DNA of 64,000 nt, from the NCBI GenBank assembly GCA_030684405.1, contig JAUXYA010000015.1:62001-126000 (forward strand), written 5' to 3'. Under the pieces are notes generated by a model. The model made no database searches, was not told the origin of the DNA, and saw nothing but the letters and a program-made list of their open reading frames with translations. Both the position numbers and the translations under genes were made by a program. Numbering within the stretch: position 1 is the stretch's first letter; the number at the start of each line of letters is the position of its first letter. This stretch comes from Burkholderiales bacterium. GTDB lineage: Bacteria > Pseudomonadota > Gammaproteobacteria > Burkholderiales > SG8-41. Positions 1 through 16,799 of the stretch are shown here, in pieces.

Positions 1-453
1 GTGCTGATCATCCTGCGTCCCGGTGCCGAGTCCTTCCAGTGGGCGCTGCTGCTGCCGCTTGCCGCAGCAATGATCAACGCGCTGCGCGATGTGATAACAC
101 GATGGTTGTCGCGCACCGAGACCTCGATCGCGATCCTGTTCTGGTCGAACATCATCCTGATGGCCGGCGGATTCGCGACGCTGCCCTTCGGCTGGCAGGC
201 GGTGACCTGGCATGCGGGGCTGTGGTTCCTTGCCGCCGGCATTTTCAACGGCAGTGCGCATTTTCTGATCATCGAAGCCCTGCGCACCGGCGAGGCCTCG
301 GTGCTGGCACCCGTCCGTTACACCGCGCTATTGTGGGCGGCCGCGATCGGCTTTCTCGTCTGGGGTGAACTGCCGGAACTGTGGCTGTGGGCGGGTGCTG
401 CGGTAATCGTCGGCAGCAGTCTCTACATGATCCGTGGCGAGCGGCGGCGCTAA
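1..453 (+). CDS. EamA/DMT-family membrane transporter, C-terminal part (5' end outside the window)
   Basis: The reading frame is open at the window edge and ends at a TAA, so only the last 150 residues are present; the GTG at position 1 is probably internal. The fragment is strongly hydrophobic, with about five membrane segments, and ends in a basic cytoplasmic tail (GERRR). The spacing of helices and the 'APVRYTALLWAAAIGFLVWGE' type segment are typical of the second EamA repeat of drug/metabolite exporters. The substrate cannot be told. It is separated by 125 bases from the next gene, which has its own ribosome binding site. Family assignment is from pattern recognition only. Confidence 0.75.
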   Translation: MLIILRPGAESFQWALLLPLAAAMINALRDVITRWLSRTETSIAILFWSNIILMAGGFATLPFGWQAVTWHAGLWFLAAGIFNGSAHFLIIEALRTGEASVLAPVRYTALLWAAAIGFLVWGELPELWLWAGAAVIVGSSLYMIRGERRR

Positions 454-578
454 GTTCCGTAACCCCCTGTGCGTGACGGGTTTCTCCGGTTTCGATTGCA
501 GTGGCAGGGACCCGCGATTATGCTGGGCTTGCAGTCTGGCAATACCGATTGTTCATAATGATGACAAGGAGAACTTTT

Positions 579-1040
579 ATGGAAATTCAAGCAGGCGGTG
601 CGGCACCGGATTTCACGCTGGCCGCGCACAACTCTGACCAGAAGGTCGCGCTGTCCTCGTTCAAGGGACGCCCGGTCGTGGTCGCATTCATGCCCTTTGC
701 CTTTACCGGGGGATGAACCAATCAAGTCCGTGGGTTCCGTGAGAACTACGAAGAATTCAAGAAACTGAACTGCGAAATCCTGCAGCTGAGCGCCGATCCG
801 CTGCCGAGTCTGAAAGCCTGGGCAGAGCATCTTGGTGGCGTGCCTTTCCCGCTGATGTCCGACTATTGGCCGCATGGTGCGGTCGGTCAGGCCTTCGGAA
901 TTTTCAATGACGAGCGCGGCATGGATAAACGAGCCGCCTATGTCATTGATGCCAAGGGGGTCGTGCGTTACGCCAAGGTCTACCCGCAGGGCACGATTCC
1001 GACCAGTGAGGAACTGCTCGCCGAGCTGCGCAAGCTCTAG
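579..1040 (+). CDS. Peroxiredoxin-like selenoprotein (AhpC/TSA fold) with in-frame TGA at codon 46
   Basis: A single frame runs from ATG 579 to TAG 1040 and is broken only by a TGA at 714-716. Read through, it gives 153 residues of an AhpC/TSA-type thioredoxin fold: 'APDFTL' near the N-terminus, a strand ending PFAFTGG, then the TGA in the T-x-x-(C/U) position where peroxiredoxins carry their peroxidatic cysteine, then TNQVRGF. The C-terminal half keeps the family's 'AYVIDAKGVVRY' strand. Cys65 is the only cysteine. A hairpin 13 bases after the TGA fits a bacterial SECIS element. AAGGAG lies about 8 bases before the ATG and a strong terminator follows the gene. It probably reduces peroxides with thiol donors in the cytoplasm. 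The alternative, a nonsense mutation, is less likely because both halves are well conserved and in frame. Confidence 0.85.
729..750 (+). promoter_or_regulatory. Putative bacterial SECIS hairpin of the peroxiredoxin-like gene
   Basis: Lower stem CGT/ACG (729-731 with 748-750), upper stem GTTC/GAAC (734-737 with 743-746), a possible G-T pair between 733 and 747, G732 bulged, and a five-base apical loop CGTGA (738-742). The loop G at 739 lies 22 bases after the TGA, inside the known bSECIS window of roughly 16-37 bases. It would recruit SelB with Sec-tRNA. Predicted by eye only. Confidence 0.65.
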
Positions 1041-1061
1041 GGCAGGGCAGGCGCATTACCG

Positions 1062-1106
1062 GGCCGGCAGGCCATACCTCTGCGAGGGATGACTGCCGGC
1101 CTTTTT
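1062..1106 (+). terminator. Rho-independent terminator after the peroxiredoxin-like gene
   Basis: A perfect nine-base stem GGCCGGCAG/CTGCCGGCC (1062-1070 with 1093-1101) with a 22-base loop is followed directly by five Ts. It lies 22 bases after the stop codon and isolates the selenoprotein gene from bdhA. Confidence 0.8.
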
Positions 1107-1177
1107 GCGTCCGCCGACTTCCGGCTGGCCCGCATTTTGCGTCATGATGCAAGCCATCCTTTCCCGGAGTTCCTGTC

Positions 1178-1960
1178 ATGTTCAACGGAAAATGCGCCCT
1201 TGTCACCGGCTCCACCAGCGGCATCGGCCTTGCCGTTGCCAGCGCGCTGGCGGCGCGCGGCGCCAATATCATGCTCAATGGCTTCGGTGACCCCGAAGCC
1301 ATCCGCGACCTGCGCATAAAACTGGCGCAGCAGTACGGCGTGCGCGTCGAGTACCACGGCGCCGACATGAGCAAACCGGCCGAAATCGCCGAAATGATGG
1401 AGCACACCGTCGCGGTGCTCGGCAAGATCGACATCCTGGTCAACAACGCCGGCATCCAGTTCGTTGCTCCGGTCGAGGAATTCCCGCCGGAGAAGTGGGA
1501 TGCGATCATCGCCATCAACCTGGTGGCGCTGTTTCACACCATCCGCCATGCCGTGCCCGGCATGAAGCGGCGGCGCTGGGGGCGCATCATCAACATCGCC
1601 TCGGCGCATGCGCTGGTGGCTTCGCCCTTCAAGTCGGCCTATGTCGCCGCCAAACACGGCGTGGCCGGGCTGACCAAGACCATTGCCCTCGAAACCGCCA
1701 CCTTCGGCGTCACCTGCAATGCGATCTGCCCGGGCTACGTGCTGACGCCGCTGGTGCAGAAGCAGATTCCGGACACCGCGAAGGCGCGCGGCATCACGGA
1801 GGAGCAGGTGGTGCGCGACGTGCTGCTGGCAGCGCAGCCGACCAAGCAGTTCGTGACGGTGGAGCAGGTGGCAGCATTGGCCTGTTTCCTTGCGAGCGAC
1901 GAAGCGGCGTCCATTACCGGCACCTTGCAGGCGATCGACGGCGGGTGGACGGCGCAGTAA
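1178..1960 (+). CDS. bdhA: 3-hydroxybutyrate dehydrogenase
   Basis: A 260-residue short-chain dehydrogenase that oxidises D-3-hydroxybutyrate to acetoacetate with NAD in the cytoplasm. The nucleotide-binding TGSTSGIG is at residues 10-17 and NNAG at 89-92. The catalytic Ser142, Tyr155 and Lys159 are present (YVAAK). The length and C-terminal 'ITGTLQAIDGGWTAQ' match the BdhA group closely. GGAG precedes the ATG. The gene faces phaZ tail to tail, so the window holds both the polymer-cleaving and the monomer-oxidising steps of polyhydroxybutyrate mobilisation. The subfamily call rests on overall resemblance, so another SDR substrate cannot be fully excluded. Confidence 0.9.
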   Translation: MFNGKCALVTGSTSGIGLAVASALAARGANIMLNGFGDPEAIRDLRIKLAQQYGVRVEYHGADMSKPAEIAEMMEHTVAVLGKIDILVNNAGIQFVAPVEEFPPEKWDAIIAINLVALFHTIRHAVPGMKRRRWGRIINIASAHALVASPFKSAYVAAKHGVAGLTKTIALETATFGVTCNAICPGYVLTPLVQKQIPDTAKARGITEEQVVRDVLLAAQPTKQFVTVEQVAALACFLASDEAASITGTLQAIDGGWTAQ

Positions 1961-1974
1961 TCGCCAAAAACCGT

Positions 1975-2078
1975 TCGTCACCCCGGCGAAAGCCGGGGTC
2001 CAGGGATTCTGAGTCGGTCTGCACTGGATTCCGGCGTTCCCCACACGGGACTTCCTTCGGGGTGCGCCGGAATGACGG
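1975..2078. repeat. Dispersed palindromic repeat, family R1
   Basis: A composite of small hairpins (CCCCGGCGAAAGCCGGGG, then a distant pair ending GCGCCGGAATGACG) fills the gap between convergent bdhA and phaZ. Related copies occur near 5167, 6555, 22424, 46003 and 51547. The placement between converging genes would allow a bidirectional terminator role, but there is no T-run. Confidence 0.75.
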
Positions 2079-2086
2079 TGGGGAAT

Positions 2087-3301
2087 TTATTCCGACGAAT
2101 AAATAACGTCCCGCACCGTCGGATAAACCTGATTTTCCCAGCGTTTGCCGCTGAACACGCCGTAGTGTCCGACACCTGCCTGCACGTAATGCGTGCGCAG
2201 ATACTGCGGCAGCCTCGAACACAGGTCCTGCGCCGCCAGCGTCTGGCCCAGCGCGCAGATGTCGTCGCGTTCGCCCTCGACCGTCAGCAGCGCGGTGCGG
2301 CGTATGGTTTTCGGATCGATCAGGCGGTCGCGGTAATGCAGCCTGCCCAGGGCAAGGGCATGTTCCTGAAACACCAGGCGCACGGTTTCGAGGTAGAAAT
2401 CGGCGTTGAGGTCTGAGACTGCGAAATATTCCTCGTAGAAGCGTCGCGTCACTTCAGCTTTTTCATGGTCGCCGTCGATGATCTGCTGGTAGTAATCCTT
2501 GAACGACTTGATATGCCGCTGCAGGTTCATGTTGAGGAAGGCGGTCAACTGCACGAAGCCGGGATAAACCCGCCGCCGCATGCCGGCAAATTGCACCGGC
2601 ACATGCTCGATCAGGTTGTGCTCGAACCAGCTGATCGGCTGGCTGGTGGCGAGCACATTGACTTCGGTCGGGTTGACGCGGCAATCGATGGGGCCGGCCA
2701 TCAGCGTCAGGCTCGCCGGCGTCGCCGGGTGCCGGTCCTCGGACATCACAGCAACTGCAGCGAGCGCCTCGACGCAAGGCTGGCAGATGGCGACCAGGTG
2801 GGCGCCCGGCCCCATCACGTTCAGAAACTCGATGATGTGATCGATGTATTCGTCGATCCCGAAAAGGCCGGCTTCCATCGGCACATCGCGCGCGTTGTGC
2901 CAGTCGGTGATGTAGACGTCGTGGTCGCGCAGCATCGTGCGCGCGGTTTCGCGCAGCAGCGTCGCGAAGTGGCCTGACATCGGCGCCACGATCAGCACCC
3001 GCGGCTGCGCACCGCCGCTGTGTTTGCGGAAGCGCAGCAGCGTCGCGAAGGGCGTGCTGTGCACGACTTCCTCGGTCACTGCCAGTTCGCGTTTACCGGC
3101 AAGCACCGATTCGATGCCGAACTCCGGGCGCTTGTGGGTCAGTCGCGCCAGTGCCAGCACTTCGCAGGCCGCGGCAAAGCGGCGCAGCGGCTGCCAGCCC
3201 CAGGTTCCGAAATCATGCAGGCCCGGGGCGGCGAGCATGGCTGCCTCCCGCATCGGGTTGAGCACGTATTCCTGTGTCTGGTAGGCGTGGTAAATCGTCA
3301 T
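2087..3301 (-). CDS. phaZ: Intracellular polyhydroxybutyrate depolymerase
   Basis: A 404-residue protein of the PhaZ intracellular depolymerase family, which degrades stored PHB granules to 3-hydroxybutyrate. There is no signal peptide, in line with an intracellular enzyme. The nucleophile is the cysteine of AICQPCVEAL (Cys173), matching the catalytic Cys of the Ralstonia eutropha PhaZ1 type, in which Cys replaces the usual lipase Ser. A histidine in 'GVGHYGVFSG' near the C-terminus fits the third triad member. GGGAG sits just before the ATG. Its tail-to-tail neighbour bdhA performs the next step. Confidence 0.9.
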   Translation of the reverse strand: MTIYHAYQTQEYVLNPMREAAMLAAPGLHDFGTWGWQPLRRFAAACEVLALARLTHKRPEFGIESVLAGKRELAVTEEVVHSTPFATLLRFRKHSGGAQPRVLIVAPMSGHFATLLRETARTMLRDHDVYITDWHNARDVPMEAGLFGIDEYIDHIIEFLNVMGPGAHLVAICQPCVEALAAVAVMSEDRHPATPASLTLMAGPIDCRVNPTEVNVLATSQPISWFEHNLIEHVPVQFAGMRRRVYPGFVQLTAFLNMNLQRHIKSFKDYYQQIIDGDHEKAEVTRRFYEEYFAVSDLNADFYLETVRLVFQEHALALGRLHYRDRLIDPKTIRRTALLTVEGERDDICALGQTLAAQDLCSRLPQYLRTHYVQAGVGHYGVFSGKRWENQVYPTVRDVIYSSE

Positions 3302-3467
3302 TGATGCTCCCGGTTTCCGGCCGCCTGCCCGGCTTGCCGGAACCGACGCAATAAACGCGCCAGCTGGATCACGTGGATGGCATGACTCCTGCTAAAGACT
3401 GCCATATTCGCGCCGGCAGCACCGCAAGGGTGCATGCTGGTGCTTCACCGCATGGAGGTTGTGCATC

Positions 3468-4124
3468 ATGGCACGGGCCACCCTGAGCATCAGCAGCAAG
3501 AATTATTCGTCCTGGTCGCTGCGCGGCTGGCTGCTGGTGCGTTTTGCCGGCCTCGAGTTCAGCGAAGTGCAGGTGTCACCCGACGATGCCGATGCGCGGC
3601 GTGAACTGCTGCTGATTTCGCCGTCGATCCTGGTGCCTTGTCTCAATCATGACGGCATCAAGGTCTGGGATACCCTGGCCATCGCCGAATACCTCAATGA
3701 AATAAAACCCAAAAGCGGTCTGCTGCCGGCGACCCGCGCGGCGCGGGCGCATTGCCGGGCGATCTGCGGCGAGATGCATTCCGGCTTCAGCAGTCTGCGC
3801 TCGGCGCTGCCGATGAACCTGAAGGGCGATTTTCCCAATTACAAGATCTGGTCCAAGGCGCGCGATGACATCGAACGCATCACCGCGATCTGGCGCGAAT
3901 GCCTCGAGCAGTACGGCGGCCCCTTCCTGTTCGGCAAAAAGCGCGGCATGGCCGACGCAATGTATGCGCCGGTGACCACCCGCTTCCGCACCTACCACGT
4001 CGGGCTCGATGCGGCCTGTGCCGCCTATTGCGAACGCATCCTGGCGCTGCCGGAGATGGACGAATGGAAGTCCGCAGCGCTTGAGGAGCAGGACGACATC
4101 GAAGAACTCGACATGGAATTCTGA
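3468..4124 (+). CDS. Glutathione S-transferase family protein
   Basis: 218 residues. The N-terminal thioredoxin-like domain has 'ISSKNYSSWSLRGW', the region that carries the catalytic Ser in bacterial GSTs, and 'ILVPCLNHDGIKVWDTLAIAEYL' with the cis-Pro and glutathione-binding features. An all-helical domain follows. A TTG nine bases upstream is also in frame, but the ATG at 3468 is preferred because GGAGG lies nine bases before it. The acidic tail (EEQDDIEELDMEF) is unusual. It may conjugate electrophiles to glutathione; the substrate is unknown. It is divergent from phaZ and monocistronic. Confidence 0.85.
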   Translation: MARATLSISSKNYSSWSLRGWLLVRFAGLEFSEVQVSPDDADARRELLLISPSILVPCLNHDGIKVWDTLAIAEYLNEIKPKSGLLPATRAARAHCRAICGEMHSGFSSLRSALPMNLKGDFPNYKIWSKARDDIERITAIWRECLEQYGGPFLFGKKRGMADAMYAPVTTRFRTYHVGLDAACAAYCERILALPEMDEWKSAALEEQDDIEELDMEF

Positions 4125-4235
4125 GTGCGCCAGACAAAAGTAAATTCCCCTCTGCCGCAGAGTCCATCCCATTGGGCTACGGGTATGGCGCGCAAAGAGT
4201 CACTGGAGCGGTCCTTTAGGTAGAACCCGTTCGGG

Positions 4236-4658
4236 TCATTTCCACGGCGCCGGGGCCGGCACCTCGGCCGGAGCGGGCATGTCGATGGTCTTGAAATCCG
4301 CCGGGCCGACGATTTCGAGGTATTCCATGTCCGGCGAGTAGTCGAACAGGTAATGCACGATGCCCGGGCGCTGGTGCACGCAGTCGCCGGCGGCCACCAG
4401 CGTTTCCTTGTCCTCGTACATGAATTTCGCCCAGCCCTTGAGCATGATGACGATATGGAATTCCGCCTCATGGCGGTGCCAGCCGGTGCCTTTTTCCGGG
4501 GCCTGGTTGGCGCGCACCATCTGGGCGATGACCTTGCCCGCGGTGGCCTCGGCGACGCCCAGATCGCGGTAGATGAAAAAATCGCGCAGGCCCTCGCTGC
4601 GGAATTCGGTGTCGCCGGGTTTTACATGGGAAAACTGGGTGATGGTGCGATCGAGCAT
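4236..4658 (-). CDS. Cupin-domain protein
   Basis: 140 residues forming one cupin barrel. The metal-binding motif is visible as GTGWHRHEAEFHIVIMLKG, with the histidines and glutamate of the G(X)5HXH(X)3-4E(X)6G pattern, and the second motif as 'DCVHQRPGIVH'. A good AGGAGA site precedes the ATG. Small cupins of this kind bind a metal and act as isomerases, dioxygenases or ligand sensors; nothing in the sequence or its neighbours fixes the role here. Confidence 0.8.
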   Translation of the reverse strand: MLDRTITQFSHVKPGDTEFRSEGLRDFFIYRDLGVAEATAGKVIAQMVRANQAPEKGTGWHRHEAEFHIVIMLKGWAKFMYEDKETLVAAGDCVHQRPGIVHYLFDYSPDMEYLEIVGPADFKTIDMPAPAEVPAPAPWK

Positions 4659-4761
4659 GGCGGATCTCCTGAACGTGGGAACCGCGGCAACTCAAGCATA
4701 AGTCGTTCCATTAAATACTGACTTGCGAACATGGTGCATATGCACCAAGGGTGTGCGGATT

Positions 4762-5097
4762 TCAGTGTATCCGCGTCACCGTCGCCGGCGCCTGCCGACC
4801 CAGATTGAGCACGACAACGCGGCGACCCAACATGACCACGCTACCTTTCCTGCGGTTGTCCCCGGTGTCGCTGAACTCGAAGTCATAGACGCGCTGCAGC
4901 AGCAGCCGGCCGTTGCTGTTGCGGGCGGGGCGCAGGCCGGCGATGCCGACGGTGTCATCGAGGAACTGCAGTCCCTCGGCATCGCAGGCAATACGCGCGG
5001 CAGCCACGGCGGCCTCGCGCGCCTGCATGCTGTCCCACCACAGCCAGGCGAGGGCAGCGAACAGTGCGAGCAGCAGGATTTCAGTGAGCGGAAACAT
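4762..5097 (-). CDS. DUF3301-like small membrane-anchored protein
   Basis: 111 residues from the ATG at 5097, chosen because the upstream in-frame extension to 5172 lies in repeat DNA and looks non-coding. It has one N-terminal membrane helix (about residues 5-22: EILLLALFAALAWLWW), then a soluble domain with 'ARIACDAEGLQFLDDTVGIAG' and 'YDFEFSDTGDNRRKGSVVMLG', which resembles DUF3301 proteins of Beta- and Gammaproteobacteria. The function is unknown. It stands alone on its strand. Confidence 0.75.
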   Translation of the reverse strand: MFPLTEILLLALFAALAWLWWDSMQAREAAVAAARIACDAEGLQFLDDTVGIAGLRPARNSNGRLLLQRVYDFEFSDTGDNRRKGSVVMLGRRVVVLNLGRQAPATVTRIH

Positions 5098-5166
5098 GCG
5101 AGGCGCCACGTTAGCAGAATTTCCCCAAACACCGTCAATCCAGGCGCAAGCCACCACCATTTTCAT

Positions 5167-5285
5167 CGTCATTCCGGCGCACGCCGGAATCCAGGTTTTT
5201 GGCGAGTCGGTTGTCAGCGGATTCCGGCTTTGCGAGCAGCCGCATCGCAGCTTGCCTGCTTACCCCTCTTCGCCGGAATGACAGC
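5167..5285. repeat. Dispersed palindromic repeat, family R1, with related segment to about 5420
   Basis: Two hairpin ends, CATTCCGGCGCACGCCGGAATCCAGG at 5170-5195 broken into its two arms, and a closing CGCCGGAATGACA near 5271, bound the element. A further segment near 5385-5418 (GCACGCCCCGAAGGAAGTC) is the reverse complement of part of the copy at 2042-2070. Together these account for the roughly 350 gene-free bases between 5098 and 5450. Confidence 0.7.
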
Positions 5286-5450
5286 GAAGGTCTATCCAGC
5301 GTATTTTTGAATGATGACCGCAAGTCGCATCACCATCTGGAACGCGCCGCAGCTAGATTCCGGGTTTGGGGTAGACTGATTTTCATTTCCCGGCACGCCC
5401 CGAAGGAAGTCCCTTTGGGGGACAAGACCGGGTTCCATGTGAGGAGCAGC

Positions 5451-6488
5451 ATGATCGAACTGAAATCCCGCAAGCACAGCACCGACGACCTCGGCAGTGC
5501 CATCGAGCTTTGCTACAGCAAGGGCTGGACCGACGGCCTGCCGGTGATTCCGCCGACGGCGGAACGCATCGAAGCCATGCTCGAGGCCGGTGGGCTCAAG
5601 CCCGACCAGCAACTGTCCTTCATCGAAAACCGCCAGGTCTCGGTGACCGCAGAAAAAGTCGCGATCAACGCGGTGATGGCCGGCTGCAAACCCGAATACA
5701 TGCCGGTGATCACCGCCACGGTCGAAGCGCTGGCTGAACCGAAATACGGCTACCACGGCCCGGCCACCAGCACCGGCGGCTCCGCGGTGTTCATGCTGGT
5801 CAACGGCCCGATCGCGAAGAAGATCGGCATGAACAGCGCCGACAATGTGTTCGGCCAGGGCTGGCGTGCCAACGCCACCATCGGCCGCGCGATCCGGCTG
5901 ATGATGCAGAACGTGATCGGCACCACTCCCGGCGTGCTCGACCGCTCGAGCCTCGGACACCCCGGCAAGTACACCTTCTGCATCGCCGAGAACGAGGAAG
6001 ACAGCCCGTGGCCGGCCTTCCACACCACGCGCGGTTTCAAACCCGAGCAGAACGCGGTGACGATTTTCGCGGCGCTCGGCGTGCACCAGTATTCCAACGG
6101 ACTGGCGGCAACCCCCGAGGGCGTGCTCGCCACCACCTGCGCGCAGATGCGCATGTCCGCCGGCACCAACCGCCAGCCGCAGTACGCGCTGGTCTTCGCC
6201 GGCGAGCACCAGTTGATCATGCAGAAGGCGGGCTGGTCACGCGAAGACGTGCAGAACTACGCGTTCGAGCACAGCAAAATGTCCCACGCCGAAATGCAGC
6301 GTGCCAACATCAGGCCGGGCCCGATCACCGCCGAATCCGAGGCGACGATGCAGACGCTGGTGCATACCCCTGAGGACTTTCTGGTCATCGCCGCCGGCGG
6401 CAAGGCTGGCGTGCAGTCCTGCTACATTCCCGGCTGGGGCGGCAAGAACGGTTCGCAGAGCGTCACGCGGGAAATCAAGCTGCCGTAA
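5451..6488 (+). CDS. Conserved protein of unknown function, probable operon partner of the UGSC selenoprotein
   Basis: 345 residues from ATG 5451, which has GAGGAG five bases upstream; the longer open frame to 5199 runs through repeat DNA and is not credible. No signal peptide or membrane segment is seen. Recognisable blocks include 'KGWTDGLPVIPPT' near residue 22, 'VAINAVMAGCKPEYMPVI', 'GWRANATIGRAIRLMMQN', and 'YTFCIAENEEDSPWPAFH'. I associate this family with UGSC-protein operons from memory, but know of no assigned activity. Cysteines in LCYSKG, AGCKPE, TFCIAE, TTCAQM and QSCYIP may matter if it works in redox or thiol chemistry with the selenoprotein. The two genes lie 199 bases apart on the same strand, separated by repeats. 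Confidence 0.75.
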   Translation: MIELKSRKHSTDDLGSAIELCYSKGWTDGLPVIPPTAERIEAMLEAGGLKPDQQLSFIENRQVSVTAEKVAINAVMAGCKPEYMPVITATVEALAEPKYGYHGPATSTGGSAVFMLVNGPIAKKIGMNSADNVFGQGWRANATIGRAIRLMMQNVIGTTPGVLDRSSLGHPGKYTFCIAENEEDSPWPAFHTTRGFKPEQNAVTIFAALGVHQYSNGLAATPEGVLATTCAQMRMSAGTNRQPQYALVFAGEHQLIMQKAGWSREDVQNYAFEHSKMSHAEMQRANIRPGPITAESEATMQTLVHTPEDFLVIAAGGKAGVQSCYIPGWGGKNGSQSVTREIKLP

Positions 6489-6505
6489 AAGCCGAAAACC
6501 TTTTT

Positions 6506-6642
6506 AGCCACAGAGGGCACAGAGGACATGGAGGGCACAGAGAAAACCCATCCCGCGTCACTCCGGCGGAAGCCGGAGTCCAGTAACAGTGTCGGCGATA
6601 CCACTGGATTCCGGATCGCACTGCGTGCGTCCGGAATGACGA
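6506..6642. repeat. Repeat block: family R2 ('cacagag') followed by family R1
   Basis: 6506-6545 is an R2 copy (AGCCACAGAGGGCACAGAGG and onward). 6555-6642 is an R1 copy bounded by CACTCCGGCGGAAGCCGGAG and a closing TCCGGAATGACG. The block sits between the two genes of the UGSC locus and could attenuate or process their transcript. Confidence 0.75.
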
Positions 6643-6687
6643 ATTCACTAAGTATTTGTTTTTATTGATATTTTTAAGGAGGTCTCC

Positions 6688-7227
6688 ATGAGCATCCAGA
6701 TCTACGATCCCACCACCGAAGTCAACAGCCGCAAGATCAATTTCGTGCCGCGGCCGAAGTCGCTGAAAGGCCTGCGCGTTGGCCTGGTCGATAACACCAA
6801 GCACAACTCCGATCAATTGCTGATGCGCATCGCCGGCATCCTTGAGAAGGAGCATGGCGCGAAGTCGCACGTGATCCGCAAAAAGAAAAGCGCCGGCTCC
6901 GCACCCAGCCCGGAAATGATCGCCGAGTACAAGGAAAACTGCGACATCATCGTTGCAGGCGTCGGCGACTGAGGGTCATGCAGCTCGGGCAGTGTGCTCG
7001 ACAGCATAGTGTTTGAACAGAACGGTGTTCCCTCGGCGTCCATCGTGACCCACGTGTTCACGGTGACGGGCAAAGCGATGGCGAAAACCTGGGGCGTGCC
7101 GGACTTGAAATTCCTGGTGATGCCGCATCCAATCGCCAACCTGACGCCGGAGCAGATGGACCAGCGCGCGGCGGAGATTGCGCCGCAAGTTGTAGAGTTA
7201 TTGTTGCAGGGGCAGCAGGCGGCTTAG
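6688..7227 (+). CDS. UGSC-family selenoprotein with in-frame TGA at codon 95
   Basis: One frame from ATG 6688 to TAG 7227 contains a single TGA at 6970-6972. Read as selenocysteine it yields 179 residues. The TGA codon is followed by Gly-Ser-Cys, giving GVGD-U-G-S-C-S-S-G-S, the defining motif of the UGSC (seleno)protein family, with Sec95 and Cys98 as a probable redox pair. Before it lie 'LVDNTKHNSDQLLMRIAG' and the strand CDIIVAGVGD. After it lie 'FEQNGVPSASIVTHVF' and 'LVMPHPIANLTPEQM', all in frame and family-like. AAGGAGG six bases before the ATG is an ideal ribosome binding site. A hairpin with G in its loop follows the TGA, and a strong terminator follows the gene. The biochemical role of the family is unknown; a thiol/selenol oxidoreductase is an inference. 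Confidence 0.9.
6993..7008 (+). promoter_or_regulatory. Putative bacterial SECIS hairpin of the UGSC gene
   Basis: A six-pair stem, TGTGCT (6993-6998) with AGCATA (7003-7008), including one G-T pair, closes a four-base loop CGAC. G7000 in the loop lies 27 bases after the TGA, within the bSECIS window. Predicted by eye. Confidence 0.6.
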
Positions 7228-7250
7228 TTGTTAAGAAGTTGCGGGAAAGG

Positions 7251-7276
7251 AAAAGGGGCCGGGAGGCCCCTTTTTT
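7251..7276 (+). terminator. Rho-independent terminator after the UGSC gene
   Basis: AAAAGGGGCC and GGCCCCTTTTTT pair around a GGGA loop and run into a six-T tract. It lies 24 bases after the UGSC stop codon. The A-tract on the 5' side means it could also act for transcription from the opposite strand. Confidence 0.85.
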
Positions 7277-7331
7277 GTTATGCGTGCACCGTTATGCGCG
7301 GCTTCCCGCTTATTCCTGAGGAGAATACGTG

Positions 7332-7556
7332 TCAGGGCTTCGATGGCCAGTCAATTTTCACCTGCCGGTGCTGTGTCACGCAGTCACGCAGATAAAGATT
7401 GATCAGGCTTTGGTAGGGCACCCCGGCATCGGCCGCCATGCGTTTGAAGTAGGCTACAACGTCTTCGGAGAGACGCATGGTGACGGGTGTCTTGAGCTTG
7501 GACGCGTAAGGATTCTTGCGCGACTTCATCCTGGAGAGATCGTATTCAGTTTTCAT
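7332..7556 (-). CDS. BrnA/CopG-like ribbon-helix-helix protein, probable antitoxin
   Basis: 74 residues. 'TPVTMRLSEDVVAYFKRMAADAGVPYQSLINLYLRDCV' (residues 23 onward) is the ribbon-helix-helix DNA-binding unit seen in BrnA-type antitoxins. BrnA normally follows a BrnT toxin gene; here the upstream gene 44 bases away is instead a RelE/ParE-type toxin that already has its own antitoxin. It may be an orphan, a second antitoxin or an extra autoregulator of that locus. Confidence 0.75.
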   Translation of the reverse strand: MKTEYDLSRMKSRKNPYASKLKTPVTMRLSEDVVAYFKRMAADAGVPYQSLINLYLRDCVTQHRQVKIDWPSKP

Positions 7557-7600
7557 GATTGTTCGCTTCCATATTCAGTCCCAAGGGCTGGGGCGTATGG

Positions 7601-7900
7601 TCATGTTTCATCATCGGGGAGCAACAACAGGCGCTCGCTCCTCCAGACACGAACCAGGCTTATGGATGCAGCATTGCGCAGGTAAACCACACGAAACGGC
7701 GGATAAATGATTTCCCGGATGCGGTCCTGATTGAATTCCGGGACCTTTCTGCCTGAATCAGGGTGATCGCGCAGATTTTGTACGCTTTTCAGGATGACAT
7801 TGACAAACTTTTGGCCGATGTCCGGCGCCCCTTGCGCCAGGTAATACGCTTTGATCTCCTGCAGGTCGCTCAGGGCCGACTGAGCGATGGTGATCTTCAT
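7601..7900 (-). CDS. RelE/ParE-family toxin
   Basis: 99 residues from ATG 7900; a TTG at 7918 would overlap the antitoxin gene and is not needed. 'ITIAQSALSDLQEIKAYYL' at the start, 'GRKVPEFNQDRIREIIYPPFRVVYL' in the middle and 'ISLVRVWRSERLL' near the end are the standard blocks of the ParE/RelE barrel. ParE members poison gyrase while RelE members cut ribosome-bound mRNA; the sequence does not decide between them. It starts four bases after the stop of the Phd/YefM-like antitoxin gene, so the pair is almost surely co-translated. Confidence 0.85.
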   Translation of the reverse strand: MKITIAQSALSDLQEIKAYYLAQGAPDIGQKFVNVILKSVQNLRDHPDSGRKVPEFNQDRIREIIYPPFRVVYLRNAASISLVRVWRSERLLLLPDDET

Positions 7901-7904
7901 TTGC

Positions 7905-8174
7905 TTACTTTGCGCCAAGTATTTTCTTCGCCTCGGCCAGCGTGACGGTATTGCCTTCCCGGATGTCAGCCAGTCCCTGGGCCACAGCCTTGATGAATTT
8001 CAACTCATCGGCAGTTTTCTCGTAATCGTCGAGGCATTGCACCACGGCAACACCTCTGCCCCGGCTGGTCAGCAGCACGGGCCGGTGGGTATCGTTCACC
8101 CGGCTGACAACTTTACCCGGGTTCACCTTGAGGTCGGAAAGGGGAATGACATCTTCTGAAAATTTGGTTTCCAT
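7905..8174 (-). CDS. Phd/YefM-family antitoxin
   Basis: 89 residues. 'DVIPLSDLKVNPGKVVSRV' and 'PVLLTSRGRGVAVVQCLDDYEKT' are the characteristic N-terminal DNA-binding blocks of Phd/YefM antitoxins; the C-terminal 'ADIREGNTVTLAEAKKILGAK' would wrap the toxin. It lies first in the module, four bases before the toxin gene, and such proteins usually repress their own promoter, which should lie in the stretch 8175-8337. Confidence 0.85.
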   Translation of the reverse strand: METKFSEDVIPLSDLKVNPGKVVSRVNDTHRPVLLTSRGRGVAVVQCLDDYEKTADELKFIKAVAQGLADIREGNTVTLAEAKKILGAK

Positions 8175-8337
8175 TTCGGCGCTCCTGAATGAATCGCTGT
8201 CATTAATAGCACCTGTTTACTGGTGCCGTCAAGAAGTCACTAAACCTGCGGAAATGGTGTGCCCCCGGAGCCTGCCCAGTAACTATCGTGCCCGACGGAG
8301 AAACCGCGGAGACTGAAACGTCGTGTGGAACCTGTTG

Positions 8338-8856
8338 TTAAGTGCTATTTGCACGGTGTTTTCCAACTTGTCCAGCAAGCATGTTGCGCGCTTGCCTAGC
8401 CTGGCCGGGAAAGCGGCCGGTTAGAAGCTTACAAAGTAACGCGAATGCGACCGAAGAAATCCAGAAGAAAATTGCGATTGCAATAATCCACCACGCATGG
8501 ATAGTGTTGGATGGTGTATCCGTTACGCTGTACCAAACGACGCCTAGGACCACACCCACCTGAACTAAATTGCCGAGCCAACCCCAGGTTGTTTGGATAA
8601 ACCCGCCAAGATCAGATAACCGATTGCGGAGGAGTTCTGAACTGAATCTCGAAGCAGCGAACCGGAGAACTTTTTCCTGATTCTCTGGGTTGTCCAACTC
8701 GTCAATTGTCAGCCCAAGTGCAAGAGACATTTCTTCGAGAGCAGCCTTGCGATTTCGTTCTGTTTCCCACGCGGCCATCGCTAAAACGCCGAAACTGAAT
8801 GCGCTTAGAACAATCAATGCGCCAACGACGTGCCCAATTGCTACAAGTGCGGTCAT
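8338..8856 (-). CDS. Hypothetical membrane protein
   Basis: 172 residues with three predicted membrane segments: about 8-29 (GHVVGALIVLSAFSFGVLAMAA), about 91-108, and about 122-143 (WWIIAIAIFFWISSVAFALL). Between the first and second is a charged stretch with 'LGLTIDELDNPENQEKVLRFAASRF'. No family was recognised. Its DNA is visibly more AT-rich than its neighbours, as is the adjacent toxin-antitoxin module, which suggests that 7.3-8.86 kb arrived together. It ends four bases from the neighbouring dioxygenase gene on the same strand. Confidence 0.6.
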   Translation of the reverse strand: MTALVAIGHVVGALIVLSAFSFGVLAMAAWETERNRKAALEEMSLALGLTIDELDNPENQEKVLRFAASRFSSELLRNRLSDLGGFIQTTWGWLGNLVQVGVVLGVVWYSVTDTPSNTIHAWWIIAIAIFFWISSVAFALLCKLLTGRFPGQARQARNMLAGQVGKHRANST

Positions 8857-8860
8857 AGTC

Positions 8861-9775
8861 TTACCCCGCCAGCACCTTCACCCCAAACTCCTCCACCCCG
8901 CAAATCGCCGTCCGATGCATCAACCTTCGCTGCGGCAGCGCGTAGTCACCCACCGCCATGTGCTGGGTTGAATAGTTGTCCCACATGATGACGTCGCCGG
9001 CCTGCCATTTGTGGGTGTAGACCGCGTCGTCGCGGGTGATGTGTTCATGCAGGCGCTGGAGGATGGGTGCCGAATCTTCCTCGCTCATGCCTTCGAAGCT
9101 GAAGGTGTAGGTCTTGTTGACGAAAATGCATTTGCGCCCGGTTTCCGGATGCATGATCACGGCGTCATGCGAGATATCGGGCGTGGTGGCCTTCTGTGCG
9201 GCGGTGAGCGGCGGGCGGGCGTGGTCTTTGGATCGCTGCTGTTGTTTGCGTTCCTGGGCGCGGTGGTAACGGAATACCCCACGCTGTTTGTCGAGCCAGT
9301 CGCGGGTTTCGGCGTCGAGCGTGTCGTAGGCATGTGCGGTGCTGGCAAAGCAGGTGTCGCCTAGCACCTTGCCGTCCCTGGTCGGGACTTCGATGGCATG
9401 GAGGAAGGTGTAACGGGCCGGCTTGCGCATGAAGCAGAGGTCGGTGTGCCAGTCGTCCCCGGCATAGGCGGAGCCGATCGAGCGTTCGCCGTCCTTGACG
9501 TTGGAGATCAGGTGGATTTGCGGGTAGCCGGGCAGGGCGTATTCCTGGCGCACGTGTTTGTCCGGGGTGCCGAAGAGTGCGGTGAAGGCGATCTGCTGTT
9601 CCGGCGTCAGCGACTGGCCGCGGAAATAGATCATGCCGTTGCTGTCGAACAACTGTTTGATTGCAGCGAAGGTGGCGTCATCCAGTTCGCGTGACAGGTC
9701 GATGCCGAGAACTTCCGCGCCGACCGGTTTGCCGCTGTAGCGGACGTCCAGCCGGACGCCTTGCACTGTATCCAT
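8861..9775 (-). CDS. TauD/TfdA-family Fe(II)/2-oxoglutarate dioxygenase
   Basis: 304 residues, the usual length of the family. The iron ligands are visible as WHTD (His110, Asp112) and a distal histidine at about 272 in 'STQHMAVGDY', followed by the 2-oxoglutarate-binding arginine near 288 (LMHRTA). 'MIYFRGQ' near residue 48 is also typical. Members hydroxylate taurine, sulfonates, 2,4-D or other carboxylates; the substrate is not evident, as no transporter is adjacent. GGAGGAG precedes the ATG, and a perfect 12-base palindrome lies 29 bases upstream. Confidence 0.9.
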   Translation of the reverse strand: MDTVQGVRLDVRYSGKPVGAEVLGIDLSRELDDATFAAIKQLFDSNGMIYFRGQSLTPEQQIAFTALFGTPDKHVRQEYALPGYPQIHLISNVKDGERSIGSAYAGDDWHTDLCFMRKPARYTFLHAIEVPTRDGKVLGDTCFASTAHAYDTLDAETRDWLDKQRGVFRYHRAQERKQQQRSKDHARPPLTAAQKATTPDISHDAVIMHPETGRKCIFVNKTYTFSFEGMSEEDSAPILQRLHEHITRDDAVYTHKWQAGDVIMWDNYSTQHMAVGDYALPQRRLMHRTAICGVEEFGVKVLAG

Positions 9776-9803
9776 GGTCTCCTCCGTGGGCTGCAGTCAC
9801 TGG

Positions 9804-9815
9804 CTAATCGATTAG
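9804..9815. promoter_or_regulatory. Palindrome upstream of the TauD-like gene, possible operator
   Basis: CTAATCGATTAG is a perfect 12-base palindrome 29 bases upstream of the dioxygenase start codon. It has the size of a regulator half-site pair, but no regulator gene is adjacent. Confidence 0.3.
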
Positions 9816-9988
9816 AGCATAAACCTGGTTCCGGCGCCTTGAGGCCACATGCTGGTCTGCTTGCCAAGCCGGCGGGGCGCACTTAACCTGCTGGCTGAAG
9901 CGTCATCCGGCCGGCGGCACAATCACATACAACAATTGCTGGACGCGGGCCGCAACCACGGCTACCGATTGTCGGGAGGACACGATTC

Positions 9989-10786
9989 ATGACCGAAACA
10001 CAACCACGTCCCGTGGCCACACCGGACGGCAAACAATTGCCGTTCGTTGCCCCTTGCCGCGAACTCCCCGCTTCCAGGCCTCTGCAATGGGTGGCCCGCG
10101 GCTGGGCGGATTTCCGCCGCGCGCCGCAGCAGAGTCTCGGACTCGGCATTGCCATCGTCGTGCTGTCGTGGATTGTCACCGGCATCGCGCTGAGTGTCGG
10201 CAGTTACTGGGCGGCGCTGGTGCTGCTCTCGGGTTTCGTGTTCATCGCGCCCTTGCTGGCACTCGGGCTTTATTCGATCAGCCGCCAGCTCGAGCGCGGC
10301 ATGGAGCCAACGCTGGTGCGCTGCATGGAAGAGCAGGGCCGCGCATTGGGCAACGCGATGGTGTTCGCGCTGGCGCTGATGGTGCTGTTCCTGGTGTGGG
10401 CGCGTGCCGGCTCAATGGTCCACGTGTTTTTTCCGGCGCAGGGCGGCTCGGATTGGCGCGAGCTCGCGCTGTTTCTCGGCATCGGCTCGGCTGTGGGCTC
10501 GATTTTCGCGTTACTGACCTTCGTCTTCAGCGCGTTTTCGCTGCCGATGATCTGTGATCGGGAAACCGATGCGGTGACCGCCATTGTCACCAGTGTCAAC
10601 GCCGTGTTGCGCAACAAGCCGGCGATGGCGGTGTGGGCGCTGCTGATCGTGGTGCTGACCGGGATCGGTTTCGCCACCGCGCTGCTAGGTCTTGCAATTA
10701 CGATCCCCGTCCTGGGGCATGCGACCTGGCACGCCTATCGCGACACCATCGACGCCTCGGCATGGCCGGAAAGCCGGCTGGAATGA
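9989..10786 (+). CDS. DUF2189 membrane protein
   Basis: 265 residues with five or six membrane segments. The hallmark N-terminal block 'GWADFRRAPQQSLGLGIAIVVLSW' and the paired helices 'FVFIAPLLALGLYSISRQLERG' match DUF2189 proteins of Proteobacteria. 'FVFSAFSLPMICDRETDAVTAI' lies in the second half. GGGAGG precedes the ATG. The function is unknown. It is a single-gene unit, closed by the terminator at 10810. Confidence 0.85.
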   Translation: MTETQPRPVATPDGKQLPFVAPCRELPASRPLQWVARGWADFRRAPQQSLGLGIAIVVLSWIVTGIALSVGSYWAALVLLSGFVFIAPLLALGLYSISRQLERGMEPTLVRCMEEQGRALGNAMVFALALMVLFLVWARAGSMVHVFFPAQGGSDWRELALFLGIGSAVGSIFALLTFVFSAFSLPMICDRETDAVTAIVTSVNAVLRNKPAMAVWALLIVVLTGIGFATALLGLAITIPVLGHATWHAYRDTIDASAWPESRLE

Positions 10787-10809
10787 ATCCTGCCCCGCCG
10801 GGAATTAAG

Positions 10810-10835
10810 ACAGGGCCAGGAGGCCCTGTTTTTTT
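10810..10835 (+). terminator. Rho-independent terminator after the DUF2189 gene
   Basis: ACAGGGCC (10810-10817) pairs with GGCCCTGT (10822-10829) around an AGGA loop and is followed by a seven-T tract. It lies 23 bases after the gene and faces the end of the convergent Crp/Fnr-type gene. Confidence 0.85.
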
Positions 10836-10851
10836 GTCGGTAGTGACAGAG

Positions 10852-11562
10852 CTACTTGCGGTAACTGAGACGGTAAATGTCCTTGACCACCCCGTAACAA
10901 CTGCAGGCCGCCGCTTCGAGGCGGGCGGGGTCGAGGATCTGGATGTGTCCGCGGGAATAGGTGATCAGTTTCTGTTTCTGCAGTTGCATCGCCGCGCCGG
11001 TGATGCCTACCCGCCGCACGCCCAGCATGATCGACAGGAATTCCTGGGTGAGTTCGAGGTGGCGGGAGTTTACGCGGTCGCGCGTCGCCAGCAGCCAGCG
11101 AGCAAGGCGGGCTTCAACGGTATGGAAACGATTGCACGCGGCGGTTTGCGCGGCCTGTCCCATCAGTGCGTTGGAGAACCGGTACAGCTCACGAAACCAT
11201 GTGCCGTTTTCGGCAAATTCCTTGCGCAACAGGGATGCCTCGATCCGCAATGCCGTGCCTTCGCCCTGGACCAGGGCGCGCACATGCGATGTGTTGACGC
11301 CGAGTGTCGTGGATGCGCCGATGACGCCTTCGCAGCAGACGACCGCGACCTCGGCCGCCTTGTTCAGGCCGACCACGGTGAGCAGTGAGATCACACCGCT
11401 TTCCGGAAAATAGACATGCCGGATCGGGGCGCCGGGCTCGTACAACGCTTGCCGCAGCGGCAGTGAGACCGATGTCAGATGGCGTGCCAATCGGCGGTAA
11501 TCCCGACTGGGCAGCGCTGCGAGCAAGCGGTTTTGTGTCTCTGGCGGTGTTGCGCGTTTCAT
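10852..11562 (-). CDS. Crp/Fnr-family transcriptional regulator
   Basis: 236 residues: an N-terminal cyclic-nucleotide-binding-like barrel (about 10-130, with 'ALYEPGAPIRHVYFPESGVISLL') and a C-terminal winged helix (about 160-225, 'LTQEFLSIMLGVRRVGITGAAMQLQKQKLITYSRG'). This subgroup is common in Alpha- and Betaproteobacteria and lacks the Fnr N-terminal iron-sulfur cysteines; cAMP-contact residues are not obvious. 'ACSCYGV' near the C-terminus could sense redox, but that is speculation. Targets are unknown. No ribosome binding site of note is seen. Confidence 0.85.
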   Translation of the reverse strand: MKRATPPETQNRLLAALPSRDYRRLARHLTSVSLPLRQALYEPGAPIRHVYFPESGVISLLTVVGLNKAAEVAVVCCEGVIGASTTLGVNTSHVRALVQGEGTALRIEASLLRKEFAENGTWFRELYRFSNALMGQAAQTAACNRFHTVEARLARWLLATRDRVNSRHLELTQEFLSIMLGVRRVGITGAAMQLQKQKLITYSRGHIQILDPARLEAAACSCYGVVKDIYRLSYRK

Positions 11563-11922
11563 GAATATTTGCTGAGTTGCTGACCGTTTTTTACGGGTTT
11601 TGATGTAGCTGAAAATGCCCTCAAATTATAAAGAAATTAATAAAAACAATCACTTATATTCGGTATCGGACATATAAAATGGCTGTCCGTACGCCGGGAT
11701 ACACAAGCGCTGAGGCGCCTGTCCGCTTGTGTTATTTGCGTCCGCAGTCGAGGTGCGCTATTGCGTTAGTCGGGCTCAGTGTTTGTGATACGCAGGAATC
11801 ACTCTGCGGCACGCGATGGCCAAGGTGCAGGAAAACCGTATTCGGGCATCCCTGTTATGCTCCGGCGCTGCAGCGTGTTGTCACGCCTGCACCGGGCAGA
11901 CCCTCAGACAGAAAGTTTTTGC
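11563..11922. other. Gene-free intergenic region between divergent genes
   Basis: About 360 bases without a convincing gene. 11600-11685 is AT-rich and probably holds the promoters of the divergent Crp/Fnr-type and methyltransferase genes. The rest (11700-11900) is GC-rich with short spurious frames only. An in-frame extension of the methyltransferase reaches 11779 but lacks family-like sequence. Confidence 0.5.
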
Positions 11923-13065
11923 TTGAACGATCATCCCCAGATTCATTTCAACGACGGCACTGAAGATCGATCCGCGCGATGGCGCTCAGAAAGCGGTGCC
12001 GTGCCGCCAAAACGCGTGGTGGTGGCCGACGATACAATGACTGCAGATTCGGCCTATCGCCTCGCGGCCGAAGGCACGGCACTGCTCTGGCGCAGCGATT
12101 TCCAGAATGCGCGCCAAATGCTGCAGGCGCTGATGCGCCGCGTCGACCGGCCGCGCAAGTTGAAGCGGCGGGAGGCGGCAGTCGCTGAAATCCCGGGGGC
12201 GGCTTTCCACCGCCATCGTCAGGCGCAGGCCCAGCGCGCGCACACGCTGTCGATGCTGCTGATCCCGCTGGAGGGCGATTACGGCATTCCGCTGCGCCGT
12301 GCGCCTGATGTCCGGCTCGCCTGCAGCGAAGCCTGGGGTGAACCCGAAGGCGAGGCCAGCGTGGTCTCATTGCGCGAACTGTTGGGCCTGATCGGCGCAC
12401 ATGAATGGCGCAAGAAGGGCGTGGACGTGCCGGCCTTGGGGGCGCACATCCATCCCTACTATGGCGTGTTCGCGCCGATCCGCAGCGAGTATGTGAAGCT
12501 GGTGGCGCAGGCGACGCTGCCGGCGCAGACGCTGGCTTTCGACATCGGTACCGGCACTGGCGTGCTGGCGGCGCTGCTGGCGAAACGCGGGGTCGCCAGG
12601 GTGATTGCCACCGAAAACGACACGCGTGCGCTTGCTTGCGCGCGCGACAACATCAAAAGGCTGGGACTGGATGCGCAGGTGGAAGTGGTCGAAACCGACC
12701 TGTTTCCGGAGGGCCGCGCGCCGCTGGTCGTCTGCAACCCGCCGTGGATTCCGTCGCAGCCCAGCGCGCCGATCGAACGTGCGGTCTACGATGCCGGCAG
12801 CAAAATGTTGCGCGGATTCATTGCCGGGCTCGCGGCGCACCTCGAGCCTGAAGGCGAGGGCTGGTTGATCCTGTCCGATATTGCCGAACACCTGGGTCTG
12901 CGCACGCGCGAAGAGTTGCTGGCGCTGATCGATGCGGCGGGGCTGTTGGTCAAGAGCCGCAGCGAGGCGCGGCCACAGCATTCGAAGTCGCAGGATACAT
13001 CGGACCCGCTGCACGCGGCACGGGCGGCAGAGGTGACTTCCCTCTGGCGGCTGGTGCCGCGCTGA
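11923..13065 (+). CDS. Class I SAM-dependent methyltransferase (HemK/PrmC-like NPPW motif)
   Basis: 380 residues from TTG 11923; an upstream frame to 11779 gives 48 extra residues of non-family character, so the start is uncertain. The C-terminal half is a Rossmann methyltransferase with motif I 'LAFDIGTGTGVLAALLA', acidic 'VIATEND', and motif IV VVCNPPW, the (N/D)PP(Y/W) signature of enzymes that methylate amide or amino nitrogens. The N-terminal half ('WRSESGAVPPKRVVVADDTMTADSAYRLAAEGTALLW', shown here by its ends only in the protein) is a lineage-specific extension. The target could be protein glutamine, RNA or a small molecule. Confidence 0.75.
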   Translation: MNDHPQIHFNDGTEDRSARWRSESGAVPPKRVVVADDTMTADSAYRLAAEGTALLWRSDFQNARQMLQALMRRVDRPRKLKRREAAVAEIPGAAFHRHRQAQAQRAHTLSMLLIPLEGDYGIPLRRAPDVRLACSEAWGEPEGEASVVSLRELLGLIGAHEWRKKGVDVPALGAHIHPYYGVFAPIRSEYVKLVAQATLPAQTLAFDIGTGTGVLAALLAKRGVARVIATENDTRALACARDNIKRLGLDAQVEVVETDLFPEGRAPLVVCNPPWIPSQPSAPIERAVYDAGSKMLRGFIAGLAAHLEPEGEGWLILSDIAEHLGLRTREELLALIDAAGLLVKSRSEARPQHSKSQDTSDPLHAARAAEVTSLWRLVPR

Positions 13066-13074
13066 AGTGCTTGC

Positions 13075-13605
13075 TTAACCCAGAATGCCGGGATTGAGCT
13101 GCCAGGTGGCATAGGTCAGAACAGCTGCAAAACTGACCCAGGCCAGGTACGGCAGCAGCAGCGTGGCGGCAACAACGTGCAGGCGCCAGAACGCGATGAT
13201 GGTTGCGGAGATCAATGCCCACAGCAGCAGGATCTCGGCAAACGCCAGCGCACCCTGATGCCAGACAAAAAACAGCCATGTCCACACCGCGTTTGCGGCC
13301 AGTTGCACCACAAACAGGGTGAGCGCACCACCCCCGCGCCTGAAACCGTGGTCACGCCACACCAGCCATGCCGCGATGGTCATCATCAGATATAACGCAG
13401 TCCAGACCGGTCCGAACAGCCAGCCCGGCGGCGCCCACTCCGGGCGGACCAGTTGCAGGTAGAAGGCTCCAGCCTGCGCAGAGGCCACTGCACCCAGAGC
13501 CGCAGCCGCGAAGGTCAGGATCAGCCAGCCCGCCAGGCCGGCTATCTGCTTGCGGCGCGAGAGGAGAGGGTTGGTTTTTTGCACTGTCAAAGTATCCGTG
13601 GTCAT
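13075..13605 (-). CDS. tspO: TspO/MBR (CrtK) family membrane protein
   Basis: 176 residues from ATG 13605, which overlaps the stop codon of the upstream GST gene as ATGA. Five membrane helices are visible. The family's tryptophan-rich cores are present: 'LQLVRPEWAPPGWLFGPVWTALY', 'WRDHGF', 'LAANAVWTWLFFVWH' and 'LLPYLAWVSFAAVLTYATWQLN'. TspO proteins bind porphyrins and steroids and act in tetrapyrrole or stress regulation. Translational coupling to a GST suggests a shared stress role. Confidence 0.9.
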   Translation of the reverse strand: MTTDTLTVQKTNPLLSRRKQIAGLAGWLILTFAAAALGAVASAQAGAFYLQLVRPEWAPPGWLFGPVWTALYLMMTIAAWLVWRDHGFRRGGGALTLFVVQLAANAVWTWLFFVWHQGALAFAEILLLWALISATIIAFWRLHVVAATLLLPYLAWVSFAAVLTYATWQLNPGILG

Positions 13606-14213: not shown

Positions 14214-14249
14214 TGGATCCCTTGTCCGGGGTGTGACCGGACCTGGCGG

Positions 14250-15074: not shown

Positions 15075-15188
15075 GGCTGTACTCCGGTGGAATGCTGCGG
15101 ATTTTACCCCGGCGCTGCGGGGAAATGCCCGCAGGCCGGACAAGCTGCGTAGAATGCGCCCCTTTGCCACATTGGCCCGCGGAATCTG

Positions 15189-16799
<1,611 letters not shown>

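Follow-up and report, generated by a model that had tools for sequence, protein, structure and literature searches.

The gene at 6688-7227 of the window encodes a selenoprotein of the UGSC family, which on profile evidence is a distant homologue of the selenocysteine (Sec)-bearing part of GrdB and PrdB, though not a member of those families, and which most likely constitutes, with the product of a constantly associated partner gene, two subunits of one enzyme. The window is the whole stretch of DNA analysed, comprising 64,000 nucleotides of a Burkholderiales bacterium (GCA_030684405.1, contig JAUXYA010000015.1, positions 62,001 to 126,000). The features of this locus are listed below with the basis of each assignment.

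5451-6488, + strand: constant partner gene, 345 aa (pairing; alignment of 92 partners)
6676-6682, + strand: Shine-Dalgarno-like AAGGAGG, 5 bases 5' of the ATG (direct reading)
6688-7227, + strand: UGSC-family selenoprotein gene, 179 aa, stop TAG (ORF reading; family profiles)
6970-6972, + strand: TGA codon of Sec95, the U of U-G-S-C (ORF reading; orthologue alignment)
6978-7007, + strand: SECIS-like hairpin, apical loop GUG at 6992-6994 (folding; orthologue pairing)
6979-6981, + strand: TGC codon of Cys98, the presumed resolving residue (Cys in 89 of 91 aligned family members)
7255-7276, + strand: terminator-like GC-rich hairpin and T run just 3' of the UGSC gene (direct reading by eye, with no score from the terminator scan)

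Selenocysteine codon and SECIS-like hairpin

A sequence-only reading had attributed the gene to the UGSC family, with an in-frame TGA forming the U-G-S-C motif, and both points were borne out. The window protein scored above the cut-offs of NF041046 UGSC_fam (152.6 bits, cut-off 125) and PF24696 UGSC (200.2 bits, cut-off 25), and the single in-frame TGA of the ORF is codon 95, in the context VAGVGD-U-G-S-C-SSGSVL. Among 41 orthologue loci retrieved from genome contigs, TGA occupies the codon 95 position in all 40 that are readable there (the match in L059 stops short of the Sec codon), and the protein is conserved both upstream and downstream of it. The third residue of the motif is Ser in 81 of the 91 aligned members, and the near-invariance of its final Cys supports the proposed pairing of Sec95 with Cys98. 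Seven of the bins sharing the orthologue with other Burkholderiales bins (L029, L040, L044, L050-L053) are titled 'Bordetella parapertussis', and these titles look mislabelled.

Among 116 non-redundant UGSC/partner pairs, 102 carry Sec at position 95, 11 carry Cys and three carry Met. Ten of the 11 Cys forms derive from plasmids of named organisms, while the Met forms, the only homologues with neither of the residues expected by the sequence-only reading (U or C), are remote fused or adjacent proteins in Sporomusa, Vibrio and one related genome. UGSC-like/partner proteins in which Met replaces Sec/Cys were recorded at L199, L200 and L130; those of Sporomusa and Vibrio are single proteins encoded close to aconitase X and DUF126 genes.

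A SECIS-like hairpin had also been proposed at 6993-7008, with its loop G 27 bases after the TGA. A conserved hairpin does follow the TGA, but it lies at 6978-7007, with its loop G 20 bases past the TGA; 98.5% of its cells are paired across 17 distinct orthologues, including one compensatory C-G to G-C change. Since 25 of 500 shuffles reached the same covariation, this signal is modest if taken alone. The hairpin at 6993-7008 does appear when 45 bases or more are folded to minimum energy, but it is poorly kept in orthologues: one pair is broken in 10 of the 17 distinct sequences and one pair of the extended stem in 13 of the 17, so that 89.1% of cells are paired when the extended stem is included.

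Synonymous codon choice is strongly conserved over the 11 codons following the TGA, which span the hairpin at 6978-7007. In 36 betaproteobacterial orthologues, and considering only amino-acid-conserved codons, conservation of codon choice was 0.94 for codons 96-107, compared with 0.72 for codons 1-94 and 0.68 for codons 111-176; at single-codon resolution it ranged from 0.89 to 1.0 over codons 96-106 and was 0.64 at codon 107. Sixty Sec units, among them the window gene, were compared with synonymous recodings: the 45 bases 3' of the TGA folded more stably (mean z -1.35, standard error 0.17), whereas the next window downstream did not (mean z +0.13) and the upstream window did so somewhat (-0.68). 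The window sequence alone gave a dinucleotide-shuffle z of only -1.23, with 27 of 200 shuffles folding equally well or better, and an Rfam search of 6600-7300 returned sub-threshold matches only.

The Sec machinery, whose presence in the host had been named as a point to confirm, was found complete in the same genome (3.74 Mb, 99.4% complete), with selA (585 bits), selB (434 bits), selD (424 bits) and tRNA-Sec (75.9 bits, anticodon TCA). The selD gene (L009, G000:C21) carries an in-frame TGA of its own, so SelD is probably a selenoprotein as well. The window holds a second Sec candidate at 537-1037 on the + strand, an AhpC/TSA-family peroxiredoxin (PF00578, 118 bits) with an in-frame TGA in a TxxU motif, a peroxiredoxin form described as a known selenoprotein type in the excerpt of PMC2398784.

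TGA is a stop by default, and gene callers do split such genes, as in the Paracoccus copy, so a true stop followed by an untranslated stretch or a separate gene has to be weighed. Its probability is close to nil, given that orthologues conserve the protein on either side of the TGA, that 11 of the 116 pairs have Cys at position 95, that the host has the full Sec machinery and that the recoding hairpin is conserved; orthologue conservation, Cys forms and hairpin together rule out a plain stop.

Constant partner gene and copy number

The partner gene at 5451-6488 encodes a protein that matches neither Pfam nor NCBIfam families at E 0.001. In 61 units examined (17 of them from seven regions of the betaproteobacterial relative G021, not its whole set), the partner was always on the same strand as UGSC and in 59 it lay within 250 bases. 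In 30 of these units the two form a single in-frame fusion, with UGSC first and only the Sec TGA inside; two more candidate fusions that hold a second TGA were left out of this count. The partner was at least partly visible in 39 of the 41 orthologue loci, the other two (L028 and L041) starting too close to the UGSC gene to show it. The pairing extends to Actinomycetota, Alphaproteobacteria, haloarchaea and Chloroflexota (Dehalococcoidia), the partner being visible in six of seven short Chloroflexota loci. Numbers of UGSC and partner matches in four genomes were 5/5, 21/23, 19/20 and 58/62, respectively. Nine partner matches had no UGSC inside 600 bases, six of which had one 0.6 to 3.5 kb off or cut by a contig end; in L111, L118 and L205 the partner occurs without a same-strand UGSC in the stretch. 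A sequence resembling GCCGGAATCCAG was noticed by eye between the partner and UGSC genes; GCCGGAATCCAG itself occurs three times in the window (at 2024, 5183 and 51603; 0.03 expected) and may mark a dispersed intergenic repeat.

Arg146, Asn154 and Glu180 are present in all 92 aligned partners and Asp28 in 90, with two gaps; a few exceptions to Asn154 appear in the wider set of 116 pairs. The near-constant pairing, the frequent fusion and these invariant residues suggest that the partner probably binds the substrate. Partner cysteines are kept less uniformly (Cys79 in 86 of 91, Cys177 in 71 of 92, Cys230 in 43 of 92). Cys79 was considered as a co-evolving redox mate of Sec and rejected, being Ala or Gly in 7 of 113 readable pairs in which position 95 is still Sec, and remaining Cys in the three pairs with Met at position 95. 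A relationship of the partner to GrdE, which in glycine reductase provides the pyruvoyl subunit, found no support either: profile comparison of the partner with one GrdE sequence and with GrdB, in a ranking covering 296 of 461 targets, showed no similarity to either.

A different origin was suggested by structure comparison, as all 13 Foldseek matches of the partner with E <=0.001 are class I fumarases (best 7xky_A, E 2.6e-5). The partner might then be a class I fumarase-like [4Fe-4S] protein, and the pair a non-reductive lyase, hydratase or racemase in which Sec/Cys acts in acid-base catalysis or as a covalent nucleophile. The fused Met forms of Sporomusa and Vibrio near aconitase X genes, and the MmgE/PrpD, enoyl-CoA hydratase and CoA transferase families among unit neighbours, would fit such chemistry. 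The structural agreement is slight, however, with TM-scores of only 0.25-0.29 and a VIA-align result with 7xky_A of Z 4.8 over 193 residues at 5.7 A; profile comparison with fumarases returned nothing (hhalign E 0.69), the candidate cluster cysteines are not jointly kept, and the thioredoxin reductase genes found beside some units would be left unexplained. We consider this explanation improbable, and the Foldseek lead to a fumarase-like Fe-S partner was set aside as unsupported by profiles or cysteine conservation.

UGSC was detected in 40 of 61 genomes, comprising the host and its relatives. One relative, G021 (98% complete, 2% contamination), has 58 UGSC matches, of which 50 are near-complete (at least 137 of the 172 profile positions) and contain a single TGA and no further stop; the others are one fragment with a TGA, three matches with a TGA and another stop, and four without a TGA. 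Fifty near-complete Sec copies of one family in a single genome represent a notable expansion, although strain mixing could inflate the number, as the assembly lies in 330 contigs. The largest whole bacterial selenoproteomes quoted in the excerpt of PMC13188914 comprise 57 and 63 genes, and a survey table excerpted from PMC5029168 gives 26 and 33 for UGSC, probably organisms and genes.

Kinship with GrdB and PrdB and predicted fold

Of 41 diverse UGSC members scanned singly, all matched UGSC_fam, and the only other families matched by more than one member were models of the GrdB/PrdB group: TIGR01917 GrdB (23 members, best E 3.1e-6), TIGR04483 PrdB (18, 2.1e-7), GrdF (16, 3.4e-5), GrdH (13, 4.4e-6) and the general selenoprotein B model TIGR01918 (10, 2e-6). 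The remaining 19 among the families listed (25 of 27, by falling member count) were matched by one member each. Matches to single GrdB/PrdB models fall far under the family cut-offs; the window protein itself reached E 0.097 and 12.1 bits against TIGR04483 PrdB (cut-off 300), and had no match to TIGR01917 or TIGR01918 at E 1.

The comparison also holds in the opposite direction. A GrdB-family protein of a related genome (L131; TIGR01918, 419 bits) gives a weak match to UGSC_fam (E 0.006) in which Sec356 falls on profile position 69, the same position as Sec95 of the window protein. When UGSC was compared by hhalign with all 461 targets, whose decoys were the non-random neighbour genes of three genomes, L131 ranked first (probability 88%, score 45.4, vs 29.5 for the next). 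TIGR01918 gave no match above its cut-off across 274 genomes of the class, hence the GrdB side of this comparison rests on the single L131 sequence. Short PrdB-like proteins of the lineage align weakly at the Sec (ranks 11-13 of 461).

Further genes of the GrdB/PrdB type were encountered in the same genomes. Two PrdB/GrdB-like genes of the host, L169 and L174 (G000:C27 and C35), each contain a single in-frame TGA, and the relatives L134, L135 and L137 read UPNCTCAVC and have an extra C-terminal region; a TauD gene lies upstream of L134, with a similar ORF in L137. In G021, the region 3269-7551 of L176 (G021:C148) encodes the GrdB-type selenoprotein L131 together with GrdE and a DUF5940 protein, a set unexpected in a betaproteobacterium, outside the classic anaerobes. 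PF07355 GRDB matches in L131, L134, L135 and L137 end just before the Sec TGA, which makes the post-Sec part invisible to that model.

The AlphaFold model of UGSC (pLDDT 87.3) is a parallel alpha/beta structure with Sec at the start of the helix following strand 3. Judged from its strand/helix order and PDB matches, the predicted fold is Rossmann/flavodoxin-like; these matches are generic flavodoxin/Rossmann chains that name no function, and no thioredoxin or GrdB-like chain is among the 50 PDB matches shown per list, although absence from lists of this kind does not rule a family out. PDB sequence searches with UGSC, the partner and L131 returned nothing significant.

These results bear on the thiol oxidoreductase activity envisaged by the sequence-only reading, which is compatible with the data, but the evidence favours a GrdB/PrdB-like reductive subunit over a thioredoxin-like oxidoreductase. 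In the latter case, UGSC would be a general thiol/peroxide oxidoreductase and the partner its protein substrate or scaffold. The UxxC motif would suit such a role, as would the thioredoxin reductase neighbours in some lineages and the sole PDB sequence match of L131, a thioredoxin-family chain at a non-significant E of 0.71. The model looks Rossmann/flavodoxin-like, which makes the thioredoxin-like fold once suggested unlikely; family similarity goes to the GrdB/PrdB models, and dozens of paralogues occur in metabolic contexts unsuited to a housekeeping redox role. A general oxidoreductase is therefore rather unlikely.

Proposed reaction, gene neighbourhood and known systems

The reading that we favour, with somewhat more confidence than doubt, is that UGSC provides the selenium nucleophile of a thioredoxin-coupled, substrate-specific enzyme for reductive bond cleavage. 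The UGSC selenolate would attack an electrophilic carbon of a substrate held by the partner, and a carbon-heteroatom bond would then be cleaved reductively; Cys98 would resolve the Se-bound intermediate into a selenenyl-sulfide, to be re-reduced by thioredoxin and thioredoxin reductase. Different paralogues may act on different substrates, which would probably be organic acids or compounds like them, imported via TctC/TRAP-type receptors. The complex itself, bond cleavage, catalytic order, reductant and substrate class are inferred, the chemistry by analogy. In the excerpt of PMC3091704, the PrdB selenolate is proposed to attack a substrate carbon on the pyruvoyl subunit, a Cys of PrdB to resolve the selenoether, and the electrons of glycine reductase to pass from NADPH to thioredoxin reductase and thioredoxin. 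Cleavage of C-F bonds has been ascribed to GrdB/GrdE relatives (PMC10838667, in excerpt), indicating that the GrdB/PrdB superfamily can probably change substrate. The three remote homologues with Met in place of Sec/Cys speak against a two-subunit reductase.

Gene order links some units to thioredoxin. Arthrobacter has the order trxB-trxA-partner-UGSC and Roseovarius partner-UGSC-trxB; trxB lies three genes upstream of the unit on a Variovorax sp. SRS16 plasmid, a TrxR-like gene lies two genes upstream on a V. boronicumulans plasmid, and in G027 and G041 fused units have TrxR-like genes at distances of 80 and 99 bases. A plasmid of Paracoccus carries a Sec-UGSC/partner pair enclosed by selA (adjoining trxB) and selB, and the corresponding stretch of P. 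versutus includes tRNA-Sec. The profile detected thioredoxin reductase in 6 of 16 plasmid loci, although four of these matches had been used to build it, that in L204 is weaker (161 bits, over 5 kb off) and that in L207 lies on the opposite strand, about 2.3 kb off. These 16 loci were selected among 24 plasmid records in which the partner was matched, L204 and L206 being without annotation. Only 2 of the 61 units adjoin a thioredoxin reductase, and none was found in orthologue loci L020-L057 or seen beside the window unit; the coupling would consequently depend in most cases on unlinked thioredoxin.

TctC receptors are enriched about 3-fold within 2.5 kb of units (42 observed vs 13.9 expected), in a test that leaves the window unit outside and takes the densities of G027 and G041 from first-look candidate numbers (607 and 386, with 149 scored in each). 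No TctC gene is present among the ORFs called in window positions 1-16000. The receptor is itself very strongly expanded in these genomes, including the host, with 146 matches in 3.74 Mb. Other unit neighbours belong to the SDR, TauD, MmgE/PrpD, enoyl-CoA hydratase, TPP enzyme, GST, CoA transferase and AMP-binding families. Mobile elements were seen at two plasmid loci: a Sec-UGSC unit lies close to IS1071 and IS91 elements on an Acidovorax IncP plasmid, and plasmid pFER4 of Paracoccus ferrooxidans (L209, L210) combines trxB, selA, sulfur-transfer genes, Sec-UGSC/partner and selB in a region flanked on both sides by IS5-like elements, where annotators split the UGSC gene.

Among described families, the window gene agrees with NF041046/PF24696 UGSC in score, U-G-S-C motif and Sec/Cys position, with no difference in the gene. 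UGSC is among the commoner selenoprotein families of water metagenomes, with 255 Sec UGSC genes in the excerpt of PMC2398784 and 8.2% of selenoprotein genes in that of PMC9402790. In the Global Ocean Sampling set, the UGSC/Unknown_1 fusion (PMC2398784, in excerpt) probably contains the same partner domain. Neither the family names nor the UGSC literature covered, largely as excerpts, mention the partner beyond that fusion, the kinship with GrdB/PrdB or the extent of the expansion. The selenium literature covered, also in part, gives no function for UGSC and no link to GrdB or PrdB, a link that may be in print in subscription journals, which lie mostly outside this coverage; the word UGSC is absent from PMC1088965.

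GrdB, GrdF and GrdH, which represent selenoprotein B in the glycine, sarcosine and betaine reductases (TIGR01917, TIGR01918, NF040794, NF040795; PF07355), share with UGSC a UxxC motif in Sec-Sec register and similar sequence after the Sec, and the thioredoxin coupling of the glycine reductase system is what we propose for UGSC. The two differ in size, about 440 aa for GrdB-type proteins and about 180 aa for UGSC, and in their companions: GrdB-type proteins work with pyruvoyl GrdE, whereas the UGSC partner has no recognisable similarity to the single GrdE compared, which leaves the analogy without its GrdE/PrdA half. Closest in size is PrdB (TIGR04483), the Sec subunit of D-proline reductase, which in C. 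sticklandii has 242 aa with Sec152 (PMC3091704, in excerpt); it pairs with PrdA, while no PrdA-like partner was recognised for UGSC in a comparison whose pyruvoyl-subunit reference was the one GrdE. Tentatively, and still short of a favoured conclusion, UGSC and its partner may represent a large, overlooked class of thioredoxin-driven selenoenzymes, akin to GrdB/PrdB but with another substrate subunit, which in some betaproteobacteria would have multiplied to dozens of substrate-specific versions cleaving carbon-heteroatom bonds in dissolved or xenobiotic organic acids. Once placed in the GrdB/PrdB superfamily and provided with a defined partner and a probable reductant, the orphan UGSC family becomes a question that biochemistry can test.
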